Assembly: GCA_015056205.1 (NCBI GenBank)
Contig: SVGS01000014.1
Span: forward strand, 1-64,000
DNA from: Clostridiales bacterium
Lineage (GTDB): Bacteria > Bacillota > Clostridia > Christensenellales > Aristaeellaceae
DNA length: 64,000 nt
Reading direction: 5' to 3'
This document shows, piece by piece, positions 23,965 through 46,154 of this stretch. How positions within the stretch are numbered: position 1 is the stretch's first letter; each line of letters opens with the position of its first letter. Under the pieces are notes generated by a model. That model was not told the origin of the DNA. It did no database searches and saw only the letters and a list, made by a program, of their open reading frames with translations. Made by a program: the position numbers and the translations under genes.

Positions 23965-24011
23965 ATCTGAGGTTTTAAAACTTCCCCCACAGGGGGTTAA
24001 AACCTCAGATC
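23964..24011 (-). other. Hairpin that copies the 3' end of the capsid gene
   Basis: Arms 23964-23978 and 23997-24011 are a perfect 15-bp inverted repeat (GATCTGAGGTTTTAA) around a CCCCC/GGGGG inner stem. The right arm includes the capsid stop codon. The design matches the hairpin at 15980-16027 although the sequence differs. Confidence 0.8.
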
Positions 24012-24685
24012 CCATCCATATACCTCACAGTCGTGGGATAGAGGAAGCGGACTTCGGAGAACTGGGCGGTGTAGGGGATTTTATAGCGCATTTCGCTGAA
24101 CTCGGTGCCCATGCGGCGGAGGGGCTGGGTCAGGTTGAAGCAGATGCGGTCCACCCGGTTCATGTAAACCACCATGCGGTCCCGGCCGCCGCTGCCAGCG
24201 CCCCGGCACCACTTGCAGGGGGAGATGATCAGATCGCCGCCCTGCTGGCGGGACAGGTTGTTTTCCAGCACGTAGGTCAGGATGCTGCGCTCGGAATCGT
24301 CGGAGACCTTCCGGGTCACCAGCTGGCCGAACTGCTCCACCGGCACCAGAATGTGGTTCGGCAGGGCGTCGGAGGAGCAGTCGTTGTCCGTCCAGACGTC
24401 GGAGATGATCTGGTTCACATCCCGCAGGATCTGGTCCGCGGTCTTGCCGGACCACTGGGTGTCCACCCCGCCGCCCGTGGCGGGCAGCGCCATGGTGCGG
24501 ATCACGTCCGGATTGTTGCACAGGCCGGTGGACTTCGTCTTTTCGAAGCCCCGGTAGACGTTCCGGTCGATCACCTTGTCGCAGTGCAGGCGGATGCCCT
24601 TATCCAGGAAGGTCTGGGGATCCCGGCCCACCTGCCTCATTTTTTCGCTCTCCATGACGGAGAACCCGGGAATGGCACGGTCGAT
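24005..24685 (-). pseudogene. Major capsid protein, C-terminal part (split gene)
   Basis: 226 residues beginning IDRAIPGFSVMESEKMRQVG and containing VIDRNVYRGF, STGLCNNPDV and LSRQQGGDLIISPCKWCRGA, the features of DUF2184-type HK97-fold capsid proteins. The N-terminal 109 codons lie 21 kb away at 45828-46154. The frame extends a further 17 codons upstream into element DNA by chance. Joining the halves at the shared AT gives an intact 335-codon gene. Confidence 0.8.
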
Positions 24686-24694
24686 ACAAGAAAA
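24676..24694. other. Left attachment junction (att core at 24684-24685)
   Basis: CACGGTCG-AT-ACAAG: left of the AT is capsid coding DNA, right of it is element DNA. Reuniting the outer halves gives the capsid site (leftward GAAATTG-AT-CGACCGTG). Reuniting the inner halves gives a site centred on TTGTATACAA. Confidence 0.75.
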
Positions 24695-24759
24695 CGATGC
24701 ACCCCACTCGCCTTTCTGGGGTGCAAATAGGTGCAAGACCTATCGAGTGGGGTGCATCG
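24695..24759. repeat. Inverted repeat at the left element end
   Basis: CGATGCACCCCACTCG at 24695-24710 is perfectly inverted at 24744-24759. Two further GGGGTGCA copies lie nearby (24718-24725, 24772-24779). Between the att core and the recombinase stop, this is a likely recombinase or accessory-protein binding region, or a transcription stop. Confidence 0.7.
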
Positions 24760-24778
24760 TGTGATCGTATGGGGTGCA

Positions 24779-26353
24779 TCAGTCAACCTGGATCTCTTCG
24801 CCGGTGCTCAGCGTAAAGCGTACATCCTTTTTCCCGTAAACCGTCACCTGGTCGATCAGCGTTGCCCAGAGCTCGGTGCTGAACTCTGAAACCGTATCGG
24901 GCATCTGCTCAACCGCGTCAATGAAATCCGCAATCCGGCGGTTCCGCATTTCCTTGTCCCGGATGCGAGTATCCAGCCGGGTCAGCTTTTCCTCCGCCTT
25001 CTTGTACTTTCCAGAAAGCTCATCGTACTGCTTGATGTACTTCACCTGGTCCTGCGCCTCTTTGGCATTCCGGTCGATCAGGGCCTGCAGCCTGTCTGCG
25101 AGAAGGTTCCTTTCAATCTCCAAGTCAGCACGCTCCTTTTCCAGTTCCTCTGTCCCACCGACAAGGGTCTGCAGTTCTCGGAGGTTAGTGATGATCTCGT
25201 CCCGGTCGATTGAAAGCTTCCGGCAGACCTTCAGGAAGTCTGCTTCAATCCTGTCCTCATACAGATGCGGCATCCGGCAAATTTTGGTTCCCTTGTATTT
25301 GTTGTTGCACTGCCAGATGACCCGGCGGTATTTGTCGTTACTGTGCCAGACCTTAGGCCCGAAGGTTGCTCCGCAGCATCCGCAGAAGATCTTCCCCGAG
25401 AAAATGGTCTGGCCTTGGAGCGGCCTGTTCTTTCTCCGGAGAATCTCATCCTGGACTCGTTTGAAGGTCTCCGGGGGAATGATCGCCTCGTGATCCTGCT
25501 CGATGTGGTACATGGGGACCTGACCTTGGTTCTTGATGGGTGTCTTATGCAGGAAGTCCAGCGTGTATGTCTTCTGAAGGATTTTGTCACCCATATAGGT
25601 CTCGTTCGTCAGGATTCCTGCAATCGTCACATCCCGCCAGTTCTTCTTACCCGCTGGTGTTGGTATGCCTTCCTCTGTCAGGATTTTTGCGATCTTGTTG
25701 TAGGAGTACCCTTCCAGAAACAGGCCATAAATCTTTCGGACAACAACTGCCTGCTCCTTATTGATAACCGGTGTTCCATCAGGCCCTTTATCATATCCAA
25801 GAAAATGAGCGTACCCAAGGCTGTACTTTCCGTCAGCTGCTCTTTTCCGCTGACCCCAGCGCACGTTCTCGGAAATGCTCCGGCTTTCTTCCTGAGCCAG
25901 GCTGCTCATGATGGTCAGCAGGAGTTCCCCCTTGGAATCAAACGTCCAGATGTTTTCCTTCTCGAAGTAGACCTCTGTTCCATGCTCTTTCAGCTTCCGA
26001 ATGGTGGTCAGGCTGTCCACGGTATTACGGGCAAAGCGGCTGACCGACTTCGTTACGATCAAATCGATCTTGCCGTCCAGCGCATCCTCCACCATCTGCT
26101 GAAAGCCTTCCCGGTGTTTTGTGCTGGTAGCGGAGATTCCTTCATCTGTGTAAACTCTGACGAATTCCCAGTCATTTCGGCTCTGGATGTAGTTCGTGTA
26201 GTAACTGACCTGGGCCTCGTAGCTGGATTGCTGTTCTTCCAGTTCTGTGGAAACCCGTGCATATCCGGCGACCTTCCGTTTCGTCCCGTTACTGATCGGT
26301 GCTGATGTGGTCCGGTCGATTGTTGCCGGTATGACCCTTACCTTTTTTGCCAT
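24779..26353 (-). CDS. Large serine recombinase, 524 aa
   Basis: Resolvase-type catalytic domain with YARVSTE (Ser35 as nucleophile), SVSRFARNTVDSL and RWGQRKRAADG. A recombinase domain (GYSYNKIAKILTEEGI) follows, then a zinc ribbon (FCGCCGATF ... WQCNNKYKGTKIC) and a long coiled-coil near residues 400-470, the layout of TnpX/Bxb1-type integrases. It overlaps the second recombinase by 16 bases and lies 94 bases from the att core, so it is the best candidate for integrating and excising the element. Confidence 0.9.
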   Translation of the reverse strand: MAKKVRVIPATIDRTTSAPISNGTKRKVAGYARVSTELEEQQSSYEAQVSYYTNYIQSRNDWEFVRVYTDEGISATSTKHREGFQQMVEDALDGKIDLIVTKSVSRFARNTVDSLTTIRKLKEHGTEVYFEKENIWTFDSKGELLLTIMSSLAQEESRSISENVRWGQRKRAADGKYSLGYAHFLGYDKGPDGTPVINKEQAVVVRKIYGLFLEGYSYNKIAKILTEEGIPTPAGKKNWRDVTIAGILTNETYMGDKILQKTYTLDFLHKTPIKNQGQVPMYHIEQDHEAIIPPETFKRVQDEILRRKNRPLQGQTIFSGKIFCGCCGATFGPKVWHSNDKYRRVIWQCNNKYKGTKICRMPHLYEDRIEADFLKVCRKLSIDRDEIITNLRELQTLVGGTEELEKERADLEIERNLLADRLQALIDRNAKEAQDQVKYIKQYDELSGKYKKAEEKLTRLDTRIRDKEMRNRRIADFIDAVEQMPDTVSEFSTELWATLIDQVTVYGKKDVRFTLSTGEEIQVD

Positions 26354-27546
26354 GAACGTTTCCTCCCGTTAGTCATTTCAAGTTCCAGATGATCATCGAA
26401 CAGGACGATCCGTTCGACCTGTCGCTTCAGTTTGTGCACGATTTCTTCCTCTCCAATAGCCGTCTGTACAGCAGCCATCAGTTCCTCATCCCGCCAGTTC
26501 TTGCAGTCGCAGCTCTTTTTGATTCTCCTGGCATCACATGTCCAATACCGGAACTGGCCTTGTGCAGTGCTGTGCATGAAAGCCTTTGACCCGCACTTCC
26601 CGCACCAGACCATCCCGCTGTAGGCACTGGGGTTTCTCTTCTCATGAAGCTGATCCTTGCCGCGTTCCTTCCGCATTGCCTGAGCGGCGGCAAAGGTGTC
26701 CGGATCTATGATTGCCTCGTGATGATCGTCCACACGGTACTTTGGAAGCTCCCCGTAGTTGATCCTCTGCTTGTGAGGCTTGTATGCATAGACCTGCTGG
26801 TAGATCTGGCACCCTGTGTATTCTTCGTTGCTGATCATTTTTCGGAGAGTCTGCGGAGAAAAATGCTTTGTCCCCCGGACGCTTCTTATCTCCTTTTCAT
26901 CCAGTTCTGTTGCAATTTCCCGAAAGGACTTCCCGGAAAGATACTCAGCAAAAATAAACCGGACGACTTCTGCTTCGTCCGGTTCGATTACCCGTTCATC
27001 GCCTTCCCAGCGATATCCATACAGCTTCAGGTGCGCGTGTGGTTTACCTTGCTCATAGTTTTTTCGCACTCGCCATTTGATGTTCTGCGATAGACTGATA
27101 CTTTCCTGTTCGGCAAAGCTGGCCAGGATAGAAAGCATCACCTCGCCATCCGAAGTGAAGGTGTTCACGTGTTCACGCTCAAAGCGAACCTCCACGCCCA
27201 GTTCCTTCAGATGGCGAACCGTCGCCAGCAGATCAACCGTATTTCTGGCAAATCTGGATATAGACTTCGTCAGGATGATGTCAATCTTTCCTGCTTCACA
27301 ATCAGCGATCATCTTCTGAAAGCGCTCACGCGGTTTTGTGTCTGTACCGGTAATGCCCGCATCAATGTAAACGCCGACATACTCCCATTCTGGCGTTCCC
27401 TGGATCAGGTTGCTGTAGTAGCTAACCTGCGCGGACAGTGAATGCATCAGCTGCTCTGTATCAACAGAAACACGTGCATAAGCCGCCACTCTTTTCCGCT
27501 GAAACTGTTTGATCTGTCTGGTTTCAATCCGTTTTACGGTCGACAT
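26338..27546 (-). CDS. Second serine recombinase, 402 aa
   Basis: ATG 27546 follows AAAGGAGG. It has a catalytic domain with YARVSVD (Ser27), SISRFARNTVDLL, a recombinase domain (SFREIATELDEKEI) and a zinc ribbon (VWCGKCGSKAF ... YWTCDARRIKKSC). It lacks the long coiled-coil of its neighbour, a feature linked to synapsis control in large serine integrases. The pair may act together or as integrase and excision partner. Translationally coupled to both neighbours. Confidence 0.9.
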   Translation of the reverse strand: MSTVKRIETRQIKQFQRKRVAAYARVSVDTEQLMHSLSAQVSYYSNLIQGTPEWEYVGVYIDAGITGTDTKPRERFQKMIADCEAGKIDIILTKSISRFARNTVDLLATVRHLKELGVEVRFEREHVNTFTSDGEVMLSILASFAEQESISLSQNIKWRVRKNYEQGKPHAHLKLYGYRWEGDERVIEPDEAEVVRFIFAEYLSGKSFREIATELDEKEIRSVRGTKHFSPQTLRKMISNEEYTGCQIYQQVYAYKPHKQRINYGELPKYRVDDHHEAIIDPDTFAAAQAMRKERGKDQLHEKRNPSAYSGMVWCGKCGSKAFMHSTAQGQFRYWTCDARRIKKSCDCKNWRDEELMAAVQTAIGEEEIVHKLKRQVERIVLFDDHLELEMTNGRKRSWQKR

Positions 27547-27772
27547 GTTGTCCCTCCTTTCCACGTTGCATTGACGCTCGCTCCTGGGAATTAGTCAAGT
27601 TATATTCGAGGATCAGGCCATCAGAAACCGGCTTGTATTTCATCTTCATTTTCCGGTCCATCCGCCAGTATTCTCGGTTGGAGATTGTTTTCTCCATCAG
27701 CATTCTTCTCGTCTGAATCATGGTCAGGGTGTAATGGCACTCCCGCCGGAACTCGTGTTTTGACAGCTTCAT
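27524..27772 (-). CDS. Small SHOCT-like protein, 82 aa
   Basis: Paralogue of the 65-aa protein encoded at 27813-28010. Shared pattern: ExxxECxxxxTM, MLxKxxIS, EYxxMxxKMKxKYxPVSDGLI. The helix with an initial short-chain motif resembles SHOCT domains. GGAGG precedes ATG 27772; the 3' end overlaps the second recombinase by 23 bases. Probably an accessory or regulatory protein of the recombinase cassette. Confidence 0.6.
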   Translation of the reverse strand: MKLSKHEFRRECHYTLTMIQTRRMLMEKTISNREYWRMDRKMKMKYKPVSDGLILEYNLTNSQERASMQRGKEGQHVDRKTD

Positions 27773-27812
27773 GCGCAACCTCCACAGTGGATTCGTTACG
27801 TCGTATTAATCC

Positions 27813-28010
27813 TCAGTTTTCGGCAGCTTGCAAGTCTGATTCTGAAATTAATCCGTCAGAAACAGGATGGTATTTCTGCTTCATTTTGTCGCGCATCTGG
27901 CAGTATTCATCTTGGGAAATCAGGCCCTTCTTCAGCATGCTTCGTACATGACTCATCGTGATCGAAAAAAGGCATTCATTCTGAAACTCCTGCTTCGCCA
28001 ATTCCATCAT
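27813..28010 (-). CDS. Small SHOCT-like protein, 65 aa
   Basis: Begins in an ATGA overlap with the stop of the HTH/zinc-ribbon gene. It carries ECLFSITMSHVRSMLKKGLI and KMKQKYHPVSDGLI, closely matching the following gene. The two probably arose by tandem duplication. Function is not established; steady association with serine recombinases suggests a recombination-directionality or regulatory role. Confidence 0.6.
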   Translation of the reverse strand: MMELAKQEFQNECLFSITMSHVRSMLKKGLISQDEYCQMRDKMKQKYHPVSDGLISESDLQAAEN

Positions 28011-28414
28011 TGCTCACCCCCGAACCGGTCACGGATGTAGCAATCATGAGAGCAGTATTTCCGGTTACGGCTGCCATAGGCCGAGAAGGTCTTCCCACAG
28101 ACAGGACACACGGATTGCCGGAGCGATTCACGCCGGAGTTGATTCGGATGAGAATTCCACCATTTGTACCGGCAGGAATCTGAGCAGAATCTCTTTGTTT
28201 TCCGTCCCGGAATCTGCCGGATTTCTTCACCGCACTGTGGGCATGAAAAAACCGCTGCTGGCTGATCAGGTTCTTTCTGATCATCTGCGGCGGTCATTCG
28301 CTTCAGATAGGATTTAACCGTATTTTCGGATATCCCGATCTGTGCGGCAATTTTCCTGTACCCCAGTCCCTTCTCGCTGAGACTGGCAATCTTCTGTTTC
28401 TCTTGGGCCGTCAT
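28007..28414 (-). CDS. HTH plus double zinc-ribbon regulator, 135 aa
   Basis: ATG 28414 follows GGAGGA. The N-terminus is a sigma-70 region 4-like helix-turn-helix (GLGYRKIAAQIGISENTVKS). Two Cys-rich ribbons follow: CPQCGEE ... CSDSC and CPVCGKTF ... CSHDC. First gene of the recombinase cassette, so it probably controls its expression or recognises element ends. Confidence 0.7.
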   Translation of the reverse strand: MTAQEKQKIASLSEKGLGYRKIAAQIGISENTVKSYLKRMTAADDQKEPDQPAAVFSCPQCGEEIRQIPGRKTKRFCSDSCRYKWWNSHPNQLRRESLRQSVCPVCGKTFSAYGSRNRKYCSHDCYIRDRFGGEQ

Positions 28415-28459
28415 CGAGCAGTCCTCCAATCGTTTGATCGTTTGACTACTCACGCCCAA

Positions 28460-28798
28460 AAGTCAGGGGATTTTATAAGTGAAGCTCAGAAAAATAATGA
28501 GGGCACCTCCCACATAGATACCACGAGTCGCACAGCACTTTCATGCCGGAGGAAATAAGCTTGAATCTGGGTATCTCCTATTTCTCCTTCAGAAAAGCCT
28601 GCTCATGGTTTCGTACAGATGATCGATAGAAATCGGCTTTTCCGTGAAAGCATCTTGTCGATAATATCGTCGGCTCCTTCCCTTCGGAGAATGAACTGAT
28701 TGAATCTGCCCGTCCCCTGGTGCGGCTCCAGGGAATCCACGGCGAACTGATGCCCGAACTTTCCTCCTTCAGCTGGAACAGAAAGTGAGAACAGAGTG
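28460..28798. other. Gap with a decayed gene end
   Basis: No intact gene. A rightward frame from about 28652 to a stop at about 28790 encodes HLVDNIVGSFPSENELIESA and then PLVRLQGIHGELMPELSSFS, protein-like but unassigned and without a start. The part nearer 28460 is AT-rich and may hold the leftward promoter of the recombinase cassette, though I could not fix one. Confidence 0.4.
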
Positions 28799-29464
28799 AT
28801 GCGGATCCTGGCTATTTCAGACGAACCCTCCAGCAAGCTGTGGGGGGACCGGTGCAGGGAGGCCCTCTCCGGAGTGGACCTGATCCTCTCCGCGGGGGAC
28901 CTTCCCTCTTCCTACCTGTCTTTCCTCACCTGCTTCACGAACGCGCCGGTCGTCTATATCCACGGAAATCACGACGACCGCTACAGCGAGAGTCCGCCCG
29001 AGGGCTGCCTGTGCGCGGACGGCAAGATTGTGATGATCAACGGCGTCCGGATCCTCGGCCTCGGCGGCAGCTTCCGCTACCGGCCGGACGGTGTGAATAT
29101 GTACACGGAGCGTGAAATGGCTTCCCGCATTGCTTCCATACGCCGGAGGGTGAGAGCCGCCGGCGGCGTCGATATCATCCTGACACATGCGCCAATCCGC
29201 GGGCTCGGCGATGAGGACCATCCCTCGCACCGCGGCTTCGAATGCTTCAAGCCGATGCTGGACCGCTTCCGCCCCGCCGTGATGGTCCACGGCCATATGC
29301 ATCAGTCCTACACCGCGTTTTTCCAGCGGGAGCGCGAATACCACGGCATTCCGGTTATCAACGCGTCAACATCCTATGAGTTCGATCTTCCCGAGACTCC
29401 GGACAGGAAGGACCCCACCCGCCGCGGACTCCGCTACATGAAAAAAGCGAGCCGGTTCGAATGA
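28799..29464 (+). CDS. Metallophosphoesterase
   Basis: A 221-aa calcineurin-like phosphoesterase. Metal-binding motifs are AISDEPS (site I, with E where D-x-H is usual), SAGDLPSSYL, YIHGNHDDRY, LTHAPI and VHGHMH. The altered first motif is also common in the related clostridial group. ATG 28799 is used; a GTG immediately precedes it. It points away from the sugar operon and ends in a strong terminator. Substrate unknown. Confidence 0.8.
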   Translation: MRILAISDEPSSKLWGDRCREALSGVDLILSAGDLPSSYLSFLTCFTNAPVVYIHGNHDDRYSESPPEGCLCADGKIVMINGVRILGLGGSFRYRPDGVNMYTEREMASRIASIRRRVRAAGGVDIILTHAPIRGLGDEDHPSHRGFECFKPMLDRFRPAVMVHGHMHQSYTAFFQREREYHGIPVINASTSYEFDLPETPDRKDPTRRGLRYMKKASRFE

Positions 29465-29481
29465 ACCGGCCCGTTTTTTTG
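29452..29481 (+). terminator. Terminator after the phosphoesterase
   Basis: A GCCGGTTCGAATGAACCGGC stem spanning the stop codon is followed by CCGTTTTTTT. It also separates the convergent GH3 gene. Confidence 0.85.
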
Positions 29482-29505
29482 CGGTCTTTCCGGACCGGAG
29501 AAGGC

Positions 29506-32145
29506 TTACGTCTCCTTCACCGCCACCGGCACGCCGCGTGTTACTGTTTTTCCTTCATAGGTCACCGCCACGGTGATCAGGGCCGTTCCGGGAGCCTTGG
29601 CGGTTACATGGCCACATGCATCCACTTCCGCCACCGACGGATTCGAAGAGGTGTACACCGGGGGATACTTCTTCGGGCACAGGCGGGTGGTATCCTCCAG
29701 CCTGGCCACCGTTCGGATCTGGCCTTCCTCTCCAGGCAGATAGCAGTATTTGTCCAGCTCCGCGTAAACCACGGAAAGCGGAGCGTCCCATTCGCCCACG
29801 ATGGCGAATCCTTCGCTGCAGGGCAGATCCGCGCTGCTGCGGCCCACTTCCACCACATAGTCCCCGGGGATAATCCGCATCTTCTGCCGGAAATCATCCC
29901 AGAAGGTCACGTCACGCAGCGGCACTTCGATGGTCACCGTCTTTGTTTCGCCGGGTTCCAGGAAGATCTTGGTGAATCCCTTCAGCTGCCGGAAGGGCTT
30001 GTTGTAGCCGGGTTTCTCGCCGAAGCGTTCGTCCACCACCTTGCGGATGTACAGCTCCACGATTTCCTTCCCTGCCACTTTCCCCGTGTTGGTCACGTCC
30101 ACGCAGGCCGTCAGGCTGGTTCCGTTGGGAACCTCCTTCTCCTTCAGCCGCAGGTTTGCGTAATCGAAGGTGGTATAATGAATTCCGTATCCGAAGGGGA
30201 ACCGGGGTTCCTCGTCCAGGTACCAGTATGTCCGTCCGTGATCCTGGGTAAGCACGTCCGCCTTGCGGATACCGTAGTCATTGATGTTGGGCAGCTGGCT
30301 GTCATCCTTGTACCAGGTGGCGGTAAGCTTGCCGTTGGGGTTCACCTTTCCGAAGAGCACATTGGCGATAGCCGTGCCCTGGCTCTGTCCCGCGTAGGTG
30401 GCGCACACCAGCGTATGGCACTTGTCCAGCACCGGATCGCCGATGGTGCCCATCACCGTCAGCACCACCACGGTATTGGGATTGGTTTCCAGCATCTTCG
30501 CGATCCGCTCTCCCTGGCCGTTGGGCAGCGCGATGGATTTCCGGTCCGCGCCTTCGGATGCGGTACCTGCGTCCGTGCCGGCCACCATGATTACCAGATC
30601 TGCGTCCTTGGCCGCTTCCAGGGCCCTTGCGAACATCTTTCCCTGGTCGCCCTTCCGTTCAGGATCTTCCGGCCCGGCGTAAGGCACATACTCCGGCAGG
30701 TCATATTTTTCCCGGGTATCCTCGTGCTTCTCGATGCCCATGGCGGACATCATCATCTGCTGCACCTGCTGCGGGTCCACGCCCGGAATGCTCATCAGAT
30801 CCAGCAGGCCTCCGCCGTATTCCTTCTGGGCGTTCCAGCCCTTTTCGTAAATCACCTGCGCGTCCGTATCCGCCAGCTCGTTGCGGATTCCGTCCAGTGC
30901 CTCCACGTTGTACCGGGTATCCAGTCCGCCGCCTACGCCGAAGGACCCGCAGGAATAGCCGCCCAGTTCCCGGAACTTCGCGTTGGGGCCCACTACCAGC
31001 ACCTTCCGGAGGCCTTCCTTCTTCAGGGGCAGCATTCCCTTTTCGTTCTTCAGCAGCACGATGGTATCGTTGGCCATATCCACCGCCAGGTCATCATGCT
31101 CCTTGCTGGCCATCTGCTCCGCTCCCAGGCTGTCCCAGGGCGTGGATCCCTTGGGATCGAAGATGCCCTGACGGAACAGGGAGCGGACATTGCGGATCAC
31201 GTTTTTGTCAATCTGGTCTTCCGTGATCAGGCCCTGTTTCACCGCGTCCATCAGGTGAGCCCGGTGCTCTCCGCCGCAGGAGATGTCGCACCCGGCGATC
31301 AGCGTTCCGGCGGAAGCCTCCTCCAGAGTGTTGTAGTAGTAGTGTCCGACGCCTTCCTTCTGTCCCAGGGCCAGATGACCGGCGTTATAGGTTTGCTGCA
31401 CCGCGCCGCAGTCGGAGGTTACGTAGCCTTCGAAGCCCCACTCTTCCCGCAGCAGCCGGCCCATGACCCATTCGCTGGCGCCGGCGGGCACGCCGTTGAT
31501 CCGGTTGTAGCTGATCATGGTGGACTCCGCTTTTCCTTCCCGGAAAGCGTATTCAAACACCCGTGCGTAGTATTCCCGGATGGTCTTTTCATCCGCGAAG
31601 GAGATACCGGTGTTTCGGTTGTTCTCGCTGCTGTTGAGCATATAGTGCTTCGGGGTGGCCGCCGCCTTGACGTATTTCGGATCCTCATCCGCTCCCTGGA
31701 AGCCCCGGATATAGGCTGCCGCCATCTTGCCTCCCAGGAAGGGATCCTCGCCGAAGTTTTCGTCGGACCGTCCATTCCGGGGATCCTTGCTCAGGTTGAT
31801 GGTGGGGCACCAGAAGCTCAGGCTCTCGTCCCCGATGTTGTGGGCCGCCCGGATTTCATCCGAAACCGCCTTTGTCACCTTGCCGATCTTTTCCGTGTCC
31901 CAGCTCTGGCCCATGGCCAGGCATACCGGGAAGGAGGTTACGTTGTAGGACTTGTCGTTCACATAGTTCAGGGCGTTGATCCCGTGGCTGGCCTCGTTGG
32001 AATAATGCCATCCAGGGATGCCCAGCCGGGGAATCGGGCAGGTCCACGTGCCGCACCAGGCGATTTTTTCTTCCAGTGTCATCCGGCTGACCAGGTCTGC
32101 CGCCCGCTCTTCGCAGGAAAGGGATGTGTCTCTGAATTTTTCCAT
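29506..32145 (-). CDS. GH3 beta-glycosidase (beta-glucosidase/xylosidase type)
   Basis: An 879-aa GH3 enzyme. The N-terminal barrel starts MTLEEKIAWCGTWTCPIPRLG and has the nucleophile Asp in GYVTSDCGAV near residue 245. The second domain has AGTDAGTASEGADRKSIALP and WYLDEEPRFPFGYGIHYT. After a fibronectin III-like domain comes a Big_2-like Ig fold (SSNPSVAEVDACGHVTAKAP) at the C-terminus. No signal peptide, so it acts inside the cell on imported oligosaccharides. Last gene of the sugar operon. Specificity between glucose and xylose cannot be set from sequence. Confidence 0.85.
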   Translation of the reverse strand: MEKFRDTSLSCEERAADLVSRMTLEEKIAWCGTWTCPIPRLGIPGWHYSNEASHGINALNYVNDKSYNVTSFPVCLAMGQSWDTEKIGKVTKAVSDEIRAAHNIGDESLSFWCPTINLSKDPRNGRSDENFGEDPFLGGKMAAAYIRGFQGADEDPKYVKAAATPKHYMLNSSENNRNTGISFADEKTIREYYARVFEYAFREGKAESTMISYNRINGVPAGASEWVMGRLLREEWGFEGYVTSDCGAVQQTYNAGHLALGQKEGVGHYYYNTLEEASAGTLIAGCDISCGGEHRAHLMDAVKQGLITEDQIDKNVIRNVRSLFRQGIFDPKGSTPWDSLGAEQMASKEHDDLAVDMANDTIVLLKNEKGMLPLKKEGLRKVLVVGPNAKFRELGGYSCGSFGVGGGLDTRYNVEALDGIRNELADTDAQVIYEKGWNAQKEYGGGLLDLMSIPGVDPQQVQQMMMSAMGIEKHEDTREKYDLPEYVPYAGPEDPERKGDQGKMFARALEAAKDADLVIMVAGTDAGTASEGADRKSIALPNGQGERIAKMLETNPNTVVVLTVMGTIGDPVLDKCHTLVCATYAGQSQGTAIANVLFGKVNPNGKLTATWYKDDSQLPNINDYGIRKADVLTQDHGRTYWYLDEEPRFPFGYGIHYTTFDYANLRLKEKEVPNGTSLTACVDVTNTGKVAGKEIVELYIRKVVDERFGEKPGYNKPFRQLKGFTKIFLEPGETKTVTIEVPLRDVTFWDDFRQKMRIIPGDYVVEVGRSSADLPCSEGFAIVGEWDAPLSVVYAELDKYCYLPGEEGQIRTVARLEDTTRLCPKKYPPVYTSSNPSVAEVDACGHVTAKAPGTALITVAVTYEGKTVTRGVPVAVKET

Positions 32146-32163
32146 CGGTCTTCTCCTTTTTTC

Positions 32164-36257: not shown

Positions 36258-36297
36258 TCAGAATCATTGGTTATTCTTTCCGAATAAGGAATCCGTC

Positions 36298-38529: not shown

Positions 38530-38544
38530 CATCTTCACCTGCCC

Positions 38545-40056
38545 TTAAATAATGTACTCAATGACGGTCTTCTCGCTCAGCTCTTCGCTGCGCATCAGTT
38601 CCTTGGTAAAATGACCGTCCTTGAACAGCATGATCCGGTCGCTCATTCCGATCAGTTCCAGCAGCTCCTCGGAGATCATGATGATCGCCTTTCCCTGCCG
38701 CTTCAGATCCATCATCAGCTTGTACATATCCGCCTTGACGCCCACGTCGATACCGCGGGTGGGGCAGTCCAGAATCAACACGTCCGATGTGGTTCCCAGC
38801 CACTTGGAGAAAACCACCTTCTGCTTGTTGCCGCCGGAGAGTTCCTTCACCAGCTGTTCTCCGTTCCGGCACTTGATGGACATGACCTTGATCTGTTTGT
38901 TCGTCAGTTCCTTTTCGCTCCTGGGGGAGATATAGCCCAGGGCTTTTTTCATGTTCCGCAGGGAGGGCAGTACGATATTGTTTTTGATGGAAGCGCCCAG
39001 AATGACCGATTCTTTGTCCCGGTCCTTTGAAACGTACGCCATGTTGTAGCTTACGGCCGTCACCGGGTCCGTCACCGGCTTTTTCTTTCCGTCCTTGATG
39101 ATGTTGACTTCGCCGGTCAGGGGCTTCTCAATGCCGTAGAGCACCTTGCCCAGCTCGTGCATGCCGCAGTCGGACAGGCCGCCGAAGCCCAGGATCTCGC
39201 CCTTGTGCAGCTTCACGTCCACGTTCTCAAACCCGTTGCGCAGGGAGATGTGGTCCGCCTGCAGCACCACTTCGTCGCTGCTGGTGCCGTCAAAGTCGTC
39301 CCGGTAGTAGCTGCCTGCCAGCTCCCGGCCCACCATCAGCTTCCGCATCAGCTCGATGGACATCTGTTCCTTGTTCAGCGTGTCGATGATGACTCCGTCC
39401 CGCAGAACCGTAATGGTGTTGCAGACCTCCATCAGCTCGTCCAGGTCGTGGCTGATGAAGAGCACGGCCTTGTTCTCTTCATGAAGGCGGTTGATCAGGT
39501 TGTAGATCAGGCGGCGGCCCTTGGTAGCCAGCGCGGTGGTGGTCTCGTCGATGATCAGCAGATCCGGATTGGTCGACATGGCCCGGGCGATCTCCACGAT
39601 CTTCCGGTCTTCAAAGTTCAGCATGTCAATGGGCATGCTGCCCTTGATCTCCGGCGCGCCGATATCCGCCAGCACCCTGTCCGCTTCCGCGTTGATCTTC
39701 TTCCAGCTGAGGAGTCCGCCCTTGGCAAACTGTTCCAGCCGGCCCGCGAAGATGTTGGCCGCCACGGTAATCCCGCTGATGGTACCCATTTCCTGAATGA
39801 TCATGCTGACCCCGTGCTCCTGGGCGTCCACCATGCTCTTGGGATGGTATTCCTGTCCCTTCAGGATAAAGGTGCCGCTGTCCTCCTTCTGCGCTCCCGC
39901 GACAATGGACGAGAAAGTGGATTTACCCGAGCCGTTCTCTCCGATCAGACCCCGGATCTCCCCCAGACTGATGTCCACGTCCACGTCGATCAGGGCCCGC
40001 GTGGCGCCGAAGTTCTTGTTCACGCCGCGTGCGGAAAGCAATAGATTCTCGCTCAT
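38545..40056 (-). CDS. Sugar ABC transporter ATPase (RbsA type, two domains)
   Basis: About 503 aa with two nucleotide-binding domains. Domain 1: Walker A GLIGENGSGKST, Walker B LLIIDETT, with a degenerate signature (MLNFEDRKIVEI). Domain 2: degenerate Walker A region (EILGFGGLSDCG) and intact signature ELSGGNKQKVVFSKWL with LILDCPTRGIDVG. This complementary decay is normal for RbsA/MglA proteins, which energise uptake of pentoses and related sugars. Confidence 0.9.
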   Translation of the reverse strand: MSENLLLSARGVNKNFGATRALIDVDVDISLGEIRGLIGENGSGKSTFSSIVAGAQKEDSGTFILKGQEYHPKSMVDAQEHGVSMIIQEMGTISGITVAANIFAGRLEQFAKGGLLSWKKINAEADRVLADIGAPEIKGSMPIDMLNFEDRKIVEIARAMSTNPDLLIIDETTTALATKGRRLIYNLINRLHEENKAVLFISHDLDELMEVCNTITVLRDGVIIDTLNKEQMSIELMRKLMVGRELAGSYYRDDFDGTSSDEVVLQADHISLRNGFENVDVKLHKGEILGFGGLSDCGMHELGKVLYGIEKPLTGEVNIIKDGKKKPVTDPVTAVSYNMAYVSKDRDKESVILGASIKNNIVLPSLRNMKKALGYISPRSEKELTNKQIKVMSIKCRNGEQLVKELSGGNKQKVVFSKWLGTTSDVLILDCPTRGIDVGVKADMYKLMMDLKRQGKAIIMISEELLELIGMSDRIMLFKDGHFTKELMRSEELSEKTVIEYII

Positions 40057-40090
40057 GCCTGCAACCAACCTCCTGTATGATGTAGTTCCT

Positions 40091-40122
40091 GCCGCCCCGG
40101 CCCCGTTTCCGGGGCCGGCGGC
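40091..40122 (-). terminator. GC-rich hairpin after the GH2 gene
   Basis: A GCCGCCGGCCCCG/CGGGGCCGGGGCGGC stem around GAAA with no T tract. Probable mRNA-stabilising or attenuating hairpin between GH2 and the transporter genes. Confidence 0.5.
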
Positions 40123-40141
40123 ATGAAGATGTTTCCCTTGT

Positions 40142-42556
40142 TTATTTCGCGCGGATGGTAACGGTCACCGGCTCCAGGCCTTCCGCCTCCACCTTCAGCG
40201 TGATGTCCCCGGCGCCGCAGGGGCGGATCACCGCCACCGCCCGGCCGTCGAAGGAGGTAAACTGTCCGGCGCTGAACTTCTCTTCGCTGGTGGGTTTTCC
40301 GGTGCCCAGGGCGATGAGTTCGCCGCATCCGGTGACGGAAGCTTTGATCAGCTTCTCCGCCGTGTTCTCCACGATGCCGTTCTCCGCCTTCAGCAGGATC
40401 TCCACGTAGCTCAGGTCCGTATCGTCGGCGCGGATCTCGTCCCGGTCCGCTTTCGCTTCCAGATGGACGGAACCTTCCGCGCTGCGGAGCGTGTACCGGC
40501 CGGTTTCCTTCCCGTCTTTGCAGACCACCGCGGTCAGTTCACCCGGCTCATAGGGGATATCCGCAAAGCCTTTGAATTCCTTCAGCTCGCCCTTCCCGGC
40601 TTCCTTCCCGTTCAGCAGCAGGACGAAGCTGTCGCCGTCGCCGAACACGTTCACCCGCACGGTCTTCCCTTCGTATCCCTTCCAGCTCCATCCGGAGTAG
40701 GCGTTGAAGGTTTCCCACATGCCGGAGATCAGGGTCTTCCCGTAGTTCCAGGGATAATCTACCGCGATGTAGGGTTCCTTCCGCTGGCCGAAGACGATGG
40801 CCCGGTAGTAGCTCATGGGCCGGCGGAAACCGGTGATGTCGATATCCGAGCAGTAGGCGATGTACCAGGGATAGGCACCCATAAAGCCCTTGGGGGCTCC
40901 GTCCTCTTCATATTCCATCTTGCCGATGCCCGCTTCGCCGATGTAGTCCCACCCGGTCCAGGTGAAATCGCCGATGGCGGTGGGGTTGGCGGTGATCACC
41001 GCCCAGTTCTCCGCGATCCGCAGCGGCGTGGTTTCGCTGCCCACCAGCACCCGGTTCGGGAAGAGCTTCTTGTCCAGCTCGTAGCGGCTTGTGGCGTAGT
41101 TGTAGCCGCAAACGTCCAGCAGGTCGAAGCTTTCCCGGGTGGCCTGGGTCACCAGCTCGGAATTGTTCAGCTGGGCCATGGCGTCCCCCAGGTTGGTCAT
41201 GGTTTCGTTGATCTCCGCCCCCTGCTGGCCTCCCATCATGGCCGCCAGCTGGTCCATCACCGCCAGCATGGTATTGATGGCGTTCATTACGTAGCGGGTG
41301 GTGTCCAGGGAGCGGATCTTCTCCGCGATTTTCCTGCCCCAGTCCGCCCCGTTGGGGGTGCCGGTTTCCGGAATCTCGTTGCCGATGGAGTACAGCACCA
41401 CGGAGGGATGGTTGAAATCCTTCCCCACGAACCGCTCCGCCTGCTCTTCCCAGAAAAAGGGGAAGGAGGTGGCGTAGTCATAGCTGGTCTTGTTCCGGGT
41501 CCACATATCGCTGAACTCGTCCATCACCAGCATGCCCTTCCGGTCGCAGGCGTCCAGGAACGCTTTGCTGATGGGGTTATGGGCGCTGCGCACCGCGTTG
41601 AATCCCGACGCTTTCAGAATCTCCACCCGGCGTTCCTCCGCCCGTTCAATGGCCGCGGCGCCGATGAGTCCGTTGTCATGGTGCACGCAGGCACCCCGCA
41701 GCTTGATGCTCTTTCCGTTGATCCGCAGTCCGTGCTTCGGATCCAGCTGCAGTTTCCGCACGCCCAAGTGGCAGCCATCCTCATCCAGGATTTGATCCCC
41801 CTGCACCAGGCAGGTCTGGACGCTGTAGAGATAGGGATCCTCCACGTTCCACAGATGGGCGTTTTCCAGATACAGCCGCTGCTGCACTTCCGTCTTTTCC
41901 CCCGGCCAGGCTGTGATCAGGCTTTCACCGCAGATGACGTCCTTCCCTTCCGCGTCCCGGATCACGGTCTTCACAAGCACCGGCGCGGTGCGATGGCCCC
42001 GGTTTTCCACCGTCATGCGGATCAGGGCGGTGGTGCCTTCCTCGTCGATCTCCGGCGTGGAGACCCGGTAGCTGTCCGGCACCACGTGAATCAGATCGGA
42101 AACCAGGATCTTCACGTTCCGGTAGACCCCGGCGCCGGAATACCAGCGGGCGTCCGACGCTGTATGGAAGCTGACGGAAATCTTATTCTTTGCCCCGTAG
42201 CGGAGGAAGCGGTTGGCCTCCACGTAGAAATTGGAATACCCGTGGGGGAACCCGCCGGCGTAGTCACCGTTGATATGCACGGAGGCGTTCATGTAGACGC
42301 CTTCGAACTCCAGCACCACCAGCTTGTCCGCCCATTCCGCCGGCACGTCGAATTCCTTTTCAATGGCCTCGGCTACGTAGGGATAATAGGCGTTGCCGCC
42401 GCCGCTGGGGCTGTCCGCGCTCCGGTTTTTGTCCAGCATGGAATCAAAAGGAAGCGTCAGATCCTTCGTTTCTGCCGCTCCGACGCCTCCGATCAGCGCC
42501 GCCAGGCCGGTGGGCGCTGCCGTCTTCCAGTTCTTGTTAAAGCTTGTTCTGATCAT
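40142..42556 (-). CDS. GH2 family glycosidase (beta-galactosidase-like)
   Basis: An 804-aa GH2 enzyme, first gene of the operon. The sugar-binding domain has GVYMNASVHINGDYAGG and ARWYSGAGVYRNVKI. The barrel has GACVHHDNGLIG, SAHNPISKAFLDACD, the acid/base Glu in SIGNEIPE, the nucleophile Glu in VLVGSETTP, and FTWTGWDYIGE. A C-terminal DUF4982-like and Ig-like region follows (FGDGDSFVLLLNGKEAGKG). No signal peptide. Likely trims galactosyl or other side groups from hemicellulose oligomers; exact substrate unknown. Confidence 0.85.
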   Translation of the reverse strand: MIRTSFNKNWKTAAPTGLAALIGGVGAAETKDLTLPFDSMLDKNRSADSPSGGGNAYYPYVAEAIEKEFDVPAEWADKLVVLEFEGVYMNASVHINGDYAGGFPHGYSNFYVEANRFLRYGAKNKISVSFHTASDARWYSGAGVYRNVKILVSDLIHVVPDSYRVSTPEIDEEGTTALIRMTVENRGHRTAPVLVKTVIRDAEGKDVICGESLITAWPGEKTEVQQRLYLENAHLWNVEDPYLYSVQTCLVQGDQILDEDGCHLGVRKLQLDPKHGLRINGKSIKLRGACVHHDNGLIGAAAIERAEERRVEILKASGFNAVRSAHNPISKAFLDACDRKGMLVMDEFSDMWTRNKTSYDYATSFPFFWEEQAERFVGKDFNHPSVVLYSIGNEIPETGTPNGADWGRKIAEKIRSLDTTRYVMNAINTMLAVMDQLAAMMGGQQGAEINETMTNLGDAMAQLNNSELVTQATRESFDLLDVCGYNYATSRYELDKKLFPNRVLVGSETTPLRIAENWAVITANPTAIGDFTWTGWDYIGEAGIGKMEYEEDGAPKGFMGAYPWYIAYCSDIDITGFRRPMSYYRAIVFGQRKEPYIAVDYPWNYGKTLISGMWETFNAYSGWSWKGYEGKTVRVNVFGDGDSFVLLLNGKEAGKGELKEFKGFADIPYEPGELTAVVCKDGKETGRYTLRSAEGSVHLEAKADRDEIRADDTDLSYVEILLKAENGIVENTAEKLIKASVTGCGELIALGTGKPTSEEKFSAGQFTSFDGRAVAVIRPCGAGDITLKVEAEGLEPVTVTIRAK

Positions 42557-42647
42557 GGGGCTCCATCCTTTCTTCCGTTTGGGTGATGGGTTCCTGTGAT
42601 TCTGCCTTTAACCGATCCAGACTCATTTTAGTTATGTTACGTAATTT

Positions 42648-42705
42648 CTTTACAAAACGGATTATACGTGCAGGTTGTCTGTTTGTAAATAGATTTTTGT
42701 AAAAA
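42648..42705. promoter_or_regulatory. Candidate ROK operators (TTTGTAAA motifs)
   Basis: TTTGTAAA appears at 42682-42689 and TTTGTAAA again at 42695-42702, with an inverted TTTACAAA at 42648-42655. Two copies overlap the -35 of the leftward promoter. This spacing suits repression of the sugar operon by the ROK protein. Confidence 0.5.
42661..42689 (-). promoter_or_regulatory. Promoter of the sugar operon
   Basis: Read leftward: TTTACA, 17 bases, TATAAT, about 105 bases before the GH2 start. The -35 overlaps a TTTGTAAA repeat. Confidence 0.75.
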
Positions 42706-42737
42706 AATATATATTTTTTTACCATTTGATCTTTCTC

Positions 42738-42766
42738 TTGACCTGAGATCAGTTGCCTTCTATAAT
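42738..42766 (+). promoter_or_regulatory. Promoter of the ROK repressor gene
   Basis: TTGACC, 17 bases, TATAAT, a near-consensus sigma-A promoter 43 bases ahead of the ROK start and divergent from the operon promoter. Confidence 0.85.
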
Positions 42767-42808
42767 GAGGGCAGCAAAGGCATCGTTGCTGAAAGGAGAA
42801 TAGCAGGT

Positions 42809-44080
42809 ATGGAACTGCCGGTTTTGAAAGATATAGAACAAAACCTCTCTATCCCGGACCGGGTTCTTCACTGCTTCCTGGACGGAGGATCCCACGACGT
42901 AAATGAAATAGCCGCGGCGGTGGGCGTCAGCCGGCAGACGGTAATGAAGTTCCTTCAGTTTTTTATGAGGGATCAGCTGATTGTCGTCGAAGGAAAAGGT
43001 GCTTCCGGGGCCAGCGGCGGGAAAAAGCCGTTGCTTTATTCCCTCTCCACTACCCTGTATCTGCTCTGCGTCACCCTGTGGAATGAAGCCTTCCGCATCA
43101 ATCTGTTCAACATCCGCGGGGATCTGATCGACCGGATTTCCCTGTATATCCCCCTGCCGGAAACAGCGCAGGCCGCCGCGGACAATATCGGTCAGCTTTC
43201 CGCCATGCTGCTGGAGAAAAACGGGATTTCCCTTTCCGATGTCAAAGGCGTCAGCGTTTCCGTTCCGGGAACGGTGGACCGGAAGACCAATATGCTGGTC
43301 TACAGTCCCCCGGCCCACTTCTGGGGTCCCAACATCCCCCTGGCTGAGTATCTGCAGCCTTTCTTTTCGGACTCCACCATGATCTTTATCGAATCTCCCG
43401 AGAAAATTCATACCGGCATGTACTATCTGGAGCCCAGATACAACCGGACCCGTCTGGTGGTGCTGGCCGTTGCCCACGACGTGGTTTCCGGCTGCCTCAT
43501 GGAGAACGGGCATATTCTCAACGGCACCCATTCCCTCATCGGTGAACTCGGGCATATGACCGTGGATCCCGATGATTCCGAGGAATGCGAATGCGGTTCA
43601 CATGGCTGTCTGCAGAAGATGATGTCTCTTCCCCGGCTCTGGCGGATCCTCCGCCGGGAGGGGCCGGCCTTTCCGGATTCTCCCCTGCTGGCAGGCGATG
43701 GCGCCCCCACCTACCGGGAGATCCTGACCGCCGCCCGGGACGGGGACGGCCTGGCTCTCCTGTGCGAAGACTACATGGTAAAGCAGCTCTCCGTCCTGCT
43801 GCATAACCTTTCCGTCTTCTTTGACCCGGATTATGTGATTTTTGCCGGAAAGGACTTCCCCGTGAGCAGCGCCTTCATCGATAAGCTCTACAGCCGGATC
43901 AGTTCCTTCCGGTTTTTCCAGAATGGAGTAAAGCCTTTTGAGATTCTCTTTGATGATGTGGATCTGATTGAACGGGACGCCACAGGCTCCATGCTGACCC
44001 TCCGCTGGCGGCTGCTCCGCAGCGCGGACGCCTATCTGCACCTGGATATGGAAGGCTTTATTTATCCCACCCCGATGTGA
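42809..44080 (+). CDS. ROK-family transcriptional repressor (XylR-like)
   Basis: A 423-aa protein with an N-terminal winged helix (DVNEIAAAVGVSRQTVMKFL) and a ROK sugar-kinase-like body. The zinc motif ECECGSHGCLQK near residues 258-270 matches CxCGxxGC of ROK proteins. The ATP site is weak, as in repressors. It is divergent from the GH2-ABC-GH120-GH3 operon and probably senses xylose or a related sugar. GAAAGGAG precedes the ATG. Confidence 0.85.
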   Translation: MELPVLKDIEQNLSIPDRVLHCFLDGGSHDVNEIAAAVGVSRQTVMKFLQFFMRDQLIVVEGKGASGASGGKKPLLYSLSTTLYLLCVTLWNEAFRINLFNIRGDLIDRISLYIPLPETAQAAADNIGQLSAMLLEKNGISLSDVKGVSVSVPGTVDRKTNMLVYSPPAHFWGPNIPLAEYLQPFFSDSTMIFIESPEKIHTGMYYLEPRYNRTRLVVLAVAHDVVSGCLMENGHILNGTHSLIGELGHMTVDPDDSEECECGSHGCLQKMMSLPRLWRILRREGPAFPDSPLLAGDGAPTYREILTAARDGDGLALLCEDYMVKQLSVLLHNLSVFFDPDYVIFAGKDFPVSSAFIDKLYSRISSFRFFQNGVKPFEILFDDVDLIERDATGSMLTLRWRLLRSADAYLHLDMEGFIYPTPM

Positions 44081-44203
44081 TCATTCTCCGGCCGCCGGCG
44101 CCGGATCCTCCCCGCAGTATTTCGCCATGAAATCCTCCGCTTTCAGCGGCCGGTCAAACAGGTAGCCCTGCAGGAGCACCTTGCCGAAGTGCTTCAGGTA
44201 ATC
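44081..44203 (-). pseudogene. C-terminal remnant of an EAL-domain protein
   Basis: Read leftward, 40 codons: DYLKHFGKVLLQGYLFDRPL then KAEDFMAKYC. The QGYLFxRPLxxEDF pattern is the last strand and helix of EAL cyclic-di-GMP phosphodiesterases. The rest of the gene is absent; the break lies at about 44203, exactly where the XRE remnant begins. Confidence 0.6.
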
Positions 44204-44462
44204 TTACAAATATCTTAGCCACATTGAAAACAGTGTTAAATTCCCCAGTCTGGAAATGCTTGTATGTCTTTCCCGAGAGCTTGATGTGTCACTTGATTAT
44301 CTCATCAGTTCTGATTCAGATCAGACAGCAGATTTCTATGACTCTGCAGAACAGATAAATCAATTGCTTGCCACAAGTTCCCCGGAGGAGTATTCGTTCC
44401 TGATAGAATTAATCACTTTTGTACAAGATCGCATGAAGAAACACGACCTTCTCCCTCACTGA
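44204..44462 (+). pseudogene. C-terminal remnant of an XRE-family regulator
   Basis: The frame SYKYLSHIENSVKFPSLEML then ELDVSLDYLISSDSD matches the end of a helix-turn-helix_3 domain (IExGxxxPSLExLxxLAxxLxVSLDYLL). The first helices and start are missing. After it, 44463-44640 holds a leftward open frame (QIYAEYRKAERKVIKELSKE) without a recognised family. Confidence 0.65.
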
Positions 44463-44641
44463 ACCAATAAACCAACAACATCCAACTTAAACATTATCGG
44501 ATTCATCGTTCATGTCTGAAGTGCTCTAACAGCTTCACTTTCCTGTGCAACACCATCAGCTGTAGAATCCATTTCTTTTGAGAGTTCCTTGATTACTTTC
44601 CGTTCTGCTTTTCTGTATTCCGCATAAATCTGATCTTTGAG

Positions 44642-45094
44642 GATGGTGTCTCCGCCTACCGTGACAAACTAAAGAAAAGTGTTGAAGAGGACGCTACGAA
44701 ATTGTTCCGTGGGATCAGCAGCGACCCCGATTATGTAGCATTGCAGATCAATGATAAGTATGGTTTATCAATTGTTCATAAGGATGGAGATCTTATTCCC
44801 TTAAGGTCTTCTGGTTTTGAGCATGTTGTTGCATTGTCTTTGATAGGTGCGCTTCATAAAAATGCTCCATTGAGTGGGCCAATCATTATGGACTCTCCGT
44901 TTGGAAGACTGGATCCCACTCATAAACGGAATATAACGAAATCACTTCCCCAAATGTCTGATGAAGTAATCTTGCTGGCGTATACCGATGAAATTGACGC
45001 TGAGCTCGCAAGAAGCCTTCTCGGTAGCAACTTAAAGAAAGAGTATCGGTTACGGAAATATGGTTCTTTCCATACGGAAATCGAGTCGCAGTAA
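44642..45094 (+). pseudogene. C-terminal remnant of a DndD/SMC-like ATPase
   Basis: About 150 codons, open upstream without a start. It contains GFEHVVALSLIGALHKNAPL (signature-helix region) and IIMDSPFGRLDPTHKRNITK (Walker B and D-loop), then EVILLAYTDEID. The DSPFGRLD...TDEI order resembles the end of DndD, the ATPase of DNA phosphorothioation. The coiled-coil and Walker A parts are missing. Confidence 0.6.
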
Positions 45095-45108
45095 GGGAGG
45101 AAAACAGC

Positions 45109-45462
45109 ATGAATGACATTATTAATTTCCGCTTATCGAAAGAAGCGAACGATGTGGCGGATCAACTTGTTGCAACAGGTAAATTCGACCATGGTACATC
45201 CGCAGCAAAATTTGCTTTTGCTTATGCAGTAAAAAACTATTATGGTCACTTTGACCCCGCAACATATGCCGTCACAGATGGTTTCGGAACTAACTATAGT
45301 GTTGGTTCATTTAATGATCTTGCCCCATATGTTCTCGTCCTATATCCCCAAACAGAAACTCCTTACATCTATGTCAGAGCATTGATTAATTATGGGCTTG
45401 TGAAAATCGGAGAAATTATAAAAGAAAAAGGAATGCCTGCAATTTACTCATTGTGCGATTAA
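45109..45462 (+). CDS. Small uncharacterised protein next to the DndD-like remnant
   Basis: A 117-aa protein with AGGGAGG before the ATG, 14 bases after the ATPase remnant. It opens IINFRLSKEANDVADQLVAT, like the start of ribbon-helix-helix or DndE-type small proteins, and ends ALINYGLVKIGEIIKEKG. It appears intact. It may be the last gene of a lost defence operon. Family not identified. Confidence 0.5.
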   Translation: MNDIINFRLSKEANDVADQLVATGKFDHGTSAAKFAFAYAVKNYYGHFDPATYAVTDGFGTNYSVGSFNDLAPYVLVLYPQTETPYIYVRALINYGLVKIGEIIKEKGMPAIYSLCD

Positions 45463-45573
45463 CTATTCCTCCGGCTTTGGCAACACGTGCGCCTCTGTTG
45501 CCCCTCATCAGTCCGGGTTGAGCACAAACCCGATCGGCACGGCGTAGGCGGCACGTCGGGCCAAATAGGGCCG

Positions 45574-45601
45574 AAAAAAGGCCGCTTCGATTGAAGCAGC
45601 C
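45574..45601 (-). terminator. Terminator at the right element end
   Basis: Read leftward, GGCTGCTTC AATC GAAGCGGCC then TTTTTT. It would stop transcription entering from the truncated capsid gene. Confidence 0.75.
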
Positions 45602-45606
45602 TACTG

Positions 45607-45696
45607 TCACACGATTCCCGGTAAACTATCACACGTTCCCATTGTACGGTCACACGATTCATTTCCGGTATCGTGTGACCTTTTGGCTTCGTGTGC
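45607..45696. repeat. Iteron-like array of TCACACGATTC at the right element end
   Basis: Direct copies start at 45607, 45629 and 45650. Inverted copies (ATCGTGTGAC, TTCGTGTGCT) lie at 45670 and 45688. Spacing is about 20 bases, two helical turns. A related ATCGTGTGAT lies at the left end (24757-24766). Probably binding sites for a recombinase or its partner. Confidence 0.65.
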
Positions 45697-45815
45697 TGGT
45701 ATGCACCCATTTGCCTAGATCTCCATAAAACCCAGCCCTTTTCGACGATCAAAACTACAGCCGAGAACAGACTCGAATCCCGCAGACCTTTTGATTTCAA
45801 AGGCTCCGGGCCGTT

Positions 45816-45836
45816 TTTGCATTGTATCAATTTCTC
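45816..45836. other. Right attachment junction (att core at 45826-45827)
   Basis: TTGCATTGT-AT-CAATTTCTC: element DNA to the left, capsid coding DNA to the right of the AT. The capsid frame reads leftward through the core into element DNA and continues by chance to 45459. Confidence 0.75.
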
Positions 45837-46154
45837 CATGTTTAGGAAGGACATATATTCCGCAAAGTTGAAGGTGCGGGCGACGGACTTGGACATATCC
45901 GCCTGGATGACGGGGATGTCCGTGGCGGCCTCGAAGAAGAGGTTGTCGTCCTCGCCGCCGGTGGAGGCGTAGGAGACGCCGATGGTGGCGATGGATTCCA
46001 CCAGGCCGTCGCCGGTGATGACCGGCATATCCCGGGGCCAGTCGGTGCCGGAAAGGGGTTCCAGGATGGTGTCATCCACCTTTTCCAGCTCTTTGATCAG
46101 AAAGGTGTAGGAGTCGTCGGCGGTCAGGCGCCGGGACAGGGGCGTGAGAATCAT
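45828..46154 (-). pseudogene. Major capsid protein, N-terminal part (split gene)
   Basis: 109 codons from ATG 46154 (AAAGGAGG upstream): ILTPLSRRLTADDSYTFLIK ... DIPVIQADMSKSVARTFNFA ... SFLNMEKL. The rest is at 24005-24685. As it stands the product would carry a long nonsense tail read from element DNA. Loss of this gene product would prevent head assembly. Confidence 0.8.

Follow-up and report, generated by a model that had tools for sequence, protein, structure and literature searches.

A two-recombinase element divides the major capsid gene of a phage-type cassette in Clostridia at a site also used by temperate phages

We examined the first 64,000 bases (hereafter the window) of the 83,357-base contig SVGS01000014.1, which belongs to the draft genome of a Clostridiales bacterium (GCA_015056205.1; 2.94 Mb, 46 contigs, 91% complete). 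In this window, the major capsid gene of a phage-type structural cassette is divided by a 21,184-bp element carrying two large serine recombinases. This element very probably integrated at a TT dinucleotide in codon 103 of the capsid gene, and its precise excision would return a reading frame of 321 residues and a circle carrying the attP attachment site. The boundaries of the element, the empty site, a closed attP form in other records, the use of the same codon in several genomes and the exchange of the interior between elements are all observed. Related records come mostly from uncultured Clostridia in goat, sheep, yak and other gut samples.

Results

A single capsid gene lies in two parts

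Both capsid parts are encoded on the minus strand, separated by about 21 kb. The C-terminal part (24005..24664) comprises 219 codons plus the stop, and the N-terminal part (45846..46154) comprises 103 codons, the third base of the last one being element DNA. The C-terminal part (query frame 24005-24736) matched PF09950 at 4.7e-56 and phrog_264 at 2e-45, while the N-terminal part (query 45828-46178) matched phrog_264 at 2.2e-06 and was also recognised by tblastn to relatives. As an earlier note on this DNA had proposed, the two parts belong to one gene, since they occupy consecutive columns of the phrog_264 profile (22-108, then 113-321). The source genome holds one copy of each part, and a second intact capsid copy was not found in this 91% complete assembly.

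The same note had taken AT as the only sequence shared by the two junctions and had predicted a 335-codon product joined as MEKL-IDRAIPGF. Alignment to empty sites led us to reject this core. The contig L035, from yak jejunum (its coordinates match G437:C197), carries an uninterrupted capsid gene; across the head genes its identity to the window is 92-96%. The N-terminal flank of the window aligns with L035 up to and including a TTC and the C-terminal flank aligns from that same TTC, so that the flanks overlap by these three bases only. Because the relative G036 reads TTT at the crossover where the others read TTC, the core common to all of them is TT, found in the window at 24663..24664 (C-side junction) and 45847..45848 (N-side junction), both on the minus strand. 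The restored junction thus reads EYMSF followed directly by SVMES, as in the intact 321-residue protein of L035. The 335-codon product would contain 14 extra residues, and its segments LNMEKL and IDRAIPG are encoded by the ends of the element. The 321-residue protein of L035 matches a solved capsid (8hdt, 9.3e-15) without a gap at the joint.

We compared the joint at 30 relative loci, obtained by searching 37 genus genomes with the C-terminal part. Both halves were present at 21 loci (19 genomes) and met at the core codon in all 21, including L025, where this codon is substituted and unaligned. The halves also meet at the same codon in eight further copies from six genomes, a count that leaves out two more distant copies of G434 (42% identical). 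Extra residues required at the joint by homologous capsids had been named beforehand as an objection to restoration; none is needed at the 21 loci or in L035. Precise removal of the element would leave one open frame, and uninterrupted frames meet at the core codon. Empty sites and closed attP forms exist, which supports the claim that precise excision would restore the gene. Because these closed forms are DNA, a reading based on RNA or protein splicing was set aside. Taken together, a site-specific element whose precise removal would leave an intact frame is well supported.

Two serine recombinases adjoin the C-terminal part

The inserted element spans 24665..45848, one copy of the TT core included, as delimited by the empty sites of L035 and other relatives, by the ends shared with G010 and by the closed attP forms. 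Interruption by a serine-recombinase element, also anticipated by the earlier note, is supported; two full-size recombinases are arranged in tandem next to the C-terminal part. Recombinase 1 (24779..26353, 524 aa) and recombinase 2 (26338..27564, 408 aa), both on the minus strand, have open frames, the same Resolvase, Recombinase and Zn_ribbon domains and an ARVS motif, which we take to hold the catalytic serine. The integration module also contains, on the minus strand, a small SHOCT-type gene (27675..28010), whose homologue in the phage contig G330 is SHOCT_2, and a helix-turn-helix (HTH) protein (28007..28459; Pfam HTH_23) that is 95-97% identical in the attP-bearing phages described below. 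The module and the element ends are 94-96% identical to those of the same phages. All four attachment forms were seen, attL and attR in the window and G010 together with attB and attP; the core is a short direct TT, and attB differs in sequence from attP. The adjacent recombinase pair presumably performs the recombination.

The same ends occur in diverged capsid genes and in a closed form

The C-terminal part was searched in 45 genus genomes (37 + 8) and matched in 31. An uninterrupted copy was found in 25 of these 31, some of which hold further copies or fragments, and the C-side end of the element stands at the core in four: the source genome (G000), G001, G036 and G010. As for the remaining two, the contig of G004 stops at the core and G013 has a fragment only. 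The exact N-side end was present in two of the 45 genus genomes, G000 and G010, at the same codon. When 396 genomes were drawn from the order, a draw that did not contain G036 and G010, the exact C-side end was again present in two (G000 and G001). The C-terminal part has 68-80% identity between the window and G001, G036 and G010, while recombinase 1 is 98% identical in G001, 99% in G010 and 100% in G036 (212 aa available). This difference argues for movement between hosts and not for descent with the capsid, and near-identical ends at the same codon of diverged capsids indicate repeated, site-specific insertion. Relatives of recombinase 1 exist also in G007 (68%) and G008 (54%), with targets that are unreadable from their contigs.

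G004:C57 and G015:C92 are contigs that both stop precisely at the core base; they account for two of the seven contig ends that fall inside the C-terminal part. The N-terminal part was not found in G004. Assemblers tend to break where two continuations exist. The position of these two contig ends may therefore mean that the samples contain occupied as well as empty sites, which would fit a strain mixture as well as excision.

Six viral contigs contain the C-side end. In L084, L085 and L086 it is directly joined to the N-side end, which is the attP form; in L082 and L083, from other IMG samples, it is joined to this capsid, representing the same occupied allele (at least 99.9% identity); in L087 it is joined to another sequence. 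L084 is part of the 71-kb contig G330, where tape measure, tail and DNA polymerase proteins were found among ten scanned, and L085 is part of the 52-kb contig G331, which shares about 15 kb with G330 at 90% identity. Another contig, G334, measures 66.5 kb and agrees with G333 at 99.98% identity over 44.6 kb. Its tape measure and that of G330 are 98.6% identical, and it contains portal, ClpP and HK97 capsid genes. At position 47790 of G334 the C-terminal part of a cassette capsid begins at the core codon.

Three side observations concern these siphophages. Type I restriction-modification genes stand beside attP in G330 (L179:13177-19739), and a third serine-recombinase frame, of 720 aa, is found in the integrated siphophage of G334 (L189:10546-12708). 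The holin of the window is shared with the attP siphophages at 89% identity and with G333/G334 at 91%, and it is unmatched in the loci compared from other relatives.

The interior of the element is exchanged

Sequence common to the window element and the attP phages is confined to the two ends, with 3.8 kb on the recombinase side and 0.37 kb on the opposite side. Between them, the window carries on the minus strand (29506..42556) genes for GH3, a rhodanese-like protein, GH120, two permeases, a binding protein, an ABC ATPase and GH2, and on the plus strand a ROK-family regulator (42809..44080). Two more plus-strand genes follow, namely a 130-aa C-terminal remnant of a PbeC/DndD-like protein (44702..45094), 100% identical to the end of a 664-aa gene of G010, and a gene for a 117-aa protein (45109..45462), also 100% identical in G010. 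The window element and that of G010 share 1.2 kb at the N-side end, which extends into the PbeC-like gene; this gene is complete in G010 (664 aa, 2.8e-223) and only its last 130 aa are retained in the window. After it, G010 has a frame judged by eye to be helicase-like, along with two methyltransferases, in an element that is split over two contigs and whose interior is known in part. The interiors differ: sugar use in the window, Pbe-like defence in G010 and a temperate siphophage in G330/G331, as well as in G334, where the recombinase pair is diverged. No phage structural genes were found, and no primase, packaging or capsid-redirecting gene was recognised, among the scanned proteins of the window element.

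The target belongs to a genus-wide cassette

The capsid gene is part of a contractile-tail cassette of phage structural genes that runs from roughly 51.0 to 11.6 kb on the minus strand. Upstream of the capsid gene (46188..51015, minus strand) lie genes for a structural protein, a maturation protease, the portal, the large terminase and a small-terminase candidate, and downstream of it (11617..23840, minus strand) lie neck, sheath, baseplate, holin (11617-12033, minus strand) and other genes. Cellular genes, such as CTP synthase and a glgB-like gene (named from sequence), are found beyond 51.4 kb.

The cassette was present in 11 of the 12 genus relatives with at least 90% completeness and at most 5% contamination (8/9 + 3/3) and in none of 24 genomes that represent other families of this order. 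PF00589 and PF07508 gave no match within 370 kb of the cassette in G022, G035 and G002. Of 13 upstream flanks from outside the window, nine, on eight distinct contigs, have at least one of two common stretches, at 36-100% identity. These stretches are lacking in L040, L052, L054, G010 and the window, and two flanks that were too short were left out of the comparison. Among intact capsids of 18 chosen loci, compared in 153 pairs, the median dN/dS was 0.24. Near-universal presence, the lack of integrase matches around the cassette in three genomes, shared flanks and low dN/dS together fit a cassette that is vertically kept and perhaps domesticated, for instance as a gene transfer agent. Two features speak against domestication: the window, L035 and G010 have different flanks, and some genomes contain several copies. 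Being near-universal in the genus, the cassette is probably a dependable, and dispensable, landing site.

Several other features of the cassette were noted. Decay of a tape-measure candidate, suspected from nucleotide gaps, was dropped on finding that the frame measures 254-296 aa in relatives and 247 in the window. A repeat-rich gene, which we take to be of the leucine-rich type, lies inside the head-tail module (21966-23393, minus strand; phrog_35892). Several relatives have homologues of it at about the same position, and in G022, G035 and G002 this part of the cassette holds additional genes amounting to several kb. A 94-base repeat with 86% identity links 15921-16014 and 23905-23998, and 23958-24017 matches it partially in inverted orientation. 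In G022 a sodium/calcium exchanger frame is embedded in the tail module (L076:4549-5514). Adjoining the lysis genes, the minus strand at 10682-11499 encodes three peptides of 63-74 aa that contain a VSGG motif and resemble double-glycine leader peptides. Beyond the lysis end, the plus strand encodes an HNH protein and then the defence proteins ZacA, ZacB and ZacC identified by PADLOC (1663-9196), on DNA of lower GC content.

Discussion

The mechanism that we favour starts with an element carrying two large serine recombinases, which would integrate by conservative site-specific recombination at TT in codon 103. A single recombinase module with its ends would serve temperate siphophages, a defence island and a sugar-utilisation island. 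When integrated, the element would split the capsid gene and the cassette should not build heads; recombination of attL with attR would then give back the capsid frame and release the circle with attP. We infer that the copy in the window can still excise, and it is reasonable to expect that particle assembly waits for excision. A regulatory role of the interruption is possible. Considering that a genus-wide cassette is used by several different elements, temperate phages among them, codon 103 may be in the first place a standing integration site and only possibly a switch.

Several observations weigh against this mechanism. The contig of G001 lacks the N-terminal capsid part and the protease, its recombinase 1 lacks the first 13 residues, and an unrelated gene comes next. 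As assembled, this copy is beyond restoration, although a misassembly is possible in this case. Loss of the gene in related strains, named in the earlier note as a sign against excision, was accordingly seen in one of the three interrupted relatives. In addition, the 112-aa SHOCT-type gene has an in-frame stop in the window and in L082; it lacks this stop in G330, G331, L086 and the visible part of G010. If this gene encodes a directionality factor, excision may be impaired. The site is also not exclusive, as L087 joins the same end to another sequence (3976-4160), a possible secondary site that is neither capsid nor attP and lies close to the contig end. Regarding G334, its recombinase 1 relative is 74% identical, its end sequence differs and the contig contains a single junction. 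Finally, both capsid halves in the window are free of stops and differ from L035 mainly at synonymous positions (dN/dS 0.133 and 0.037), but a value of 0.035 was also obtained when the C-terminal part of the G001 copy, which carries the deletion, was compared with its closest intact relative. For this reason a low dN/dS is no proof of selection after insertion, and we judged this measure uninformative.

These observations bear on a plainer explanation, that the insertion is now fixed: having used the capsid gene as attB once, the element would be unable to leave, and this strain would have a dead cassette and no switch. We regard this as quite possible, while leaning away from it. The internal stop in the integration module, the decay illustrated by G001 and the recovery of the same occupied allele in L082 and L083 speak for it. 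Against it, both recombinase frames are open and keep their catalytic motifs, the capsid halves show the intact, mainly synonymous pattern just described, and the same ends are known from other records in closed attP form.

A more ambitious reading makes the interruption a true switch. According to it, the cassette would be a domesticated particle-making system with codon 103 as a standing attB, siphophages and cargo islands would share the recombination module, lysogeny would silence the particles through the capsid insertion and excision would release them again, to the benefit of host or element. The near-universal presence of the cassette in near-complete genus relatives, the absence of integrase matches within 370 kb in three genomes, the flanks shared by nine of 13 sequences, purifying selection on intact capsids and exact frame restoration all agree with this reading; the deviating flanks of the window, L035 and G010 speak against it, as do the several copies in some genomes, which look more like mobile prophages. 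On balance we consider it unlikely. If it were true, particles of the cassette would perhaps carry excised islands.

The close identity of the module and ends to those of the attP phages, together with the lack of phage structural genes among the scanned element proteins, could also indicate a phage satellite, that is, an island mobilised by the related siphophages with which it has the recombination module in common. Packaging, primase or capsid-redirecting genes were not recognised among the same proteins and, to our knowledge, a 21-kb sugar cargo does not resemble what known satellites carry, which makes this rather improbable. An assembly artefact or misjoined contig can be practically dismissed, even in a draft of 46 contigs, because the same C-side junction appears in two independent viral records (L082 and L083) and both kinds of junction recur in G010.

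How does the integration at codon 103 that we favour compare with known systems? The skin element in sigK, the comK prophage of Listeria and the hlb phage of Staphylococcus are examples in which precise excision restores a gene. The element in the window resembles them in that a recombinase element interrupts a gene whose frame precise excision would restore; it differs from them in its target, which is a phage-type major capsid gene and not a cellular one. The comparison with sigK and comK made in the earlier note is therefore apt for in-frame restoration and incomplete in that several different elements make use of this target, a phage-like cassette found across the genus. The solved relatives of the window recombinases are YokA of SPbeta, the TP901-1 integrase and TnpX, which have a Resolvase-type catalytic domain alike; unlike these, the window has two full-size recombinases in tandem at one element end.

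The closest known case is the helper-embedded phage-inducible chromosomal island (PICI), of which the present element is a serine-recombinase variant with a site common to phages and cargo islands. According to Tommasini et al. (2023, PMC10111431), helper-embedded PICIs such as 11capE in prophage 50icd integrate in a late gene of a prophage, mostly that of the capsid, their excision restores the gene and an integrase clade repeatedly targets such genes. They are reported from Enterobacteriaceae and related groups and have tyrosine integrases together with AlpA. The window element likewise sits in a late gene, that of the capsid, of a phage-like cassette. Unlike these islands, it has tandem large serine recombinases with an HTH protein in a Clostridia host, the interiors consist of phage, defence or sugar genes, and the target cassette is without an integrase match nearby in the three genomes tested. 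A tyrosine integrase with an AlpA-type regulator was not found among the scanned element proteins, small frames having been scanned in part.

Prophages of E. coli also integrate into other prophages, one supplying the attB of the other, as stated in the main text of PMC8112680. The sites described there are an effector-associated region and a position near an integrase gene, in contrast to the capsid gene used here, and a term search of that main text returned neither 'capsid' nor 'serine recombinase'. No serine-recombinase element in a capsid gene of Clostridia was found in the open-licence literature, covered mostly at abstract level, and the accessible portion of PMC8987985 yielded no such case.

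Overall, these results extend the interruption of capsid genes, described for tyrosine-integrase satellites of enterobacteria, to serine-recombinase elements of Clostridia. They show that a single integration module, and a single site within the capsid gene of another phage, are common to phages and to metabolic or defence islands. They also provide two large serine recombinases that occur naturally as a pair and have a conserved, defined attB. The system thus offers a testable case of a mobile element that would disable, and perhaps reversibly release, a resident phage-like particle system.

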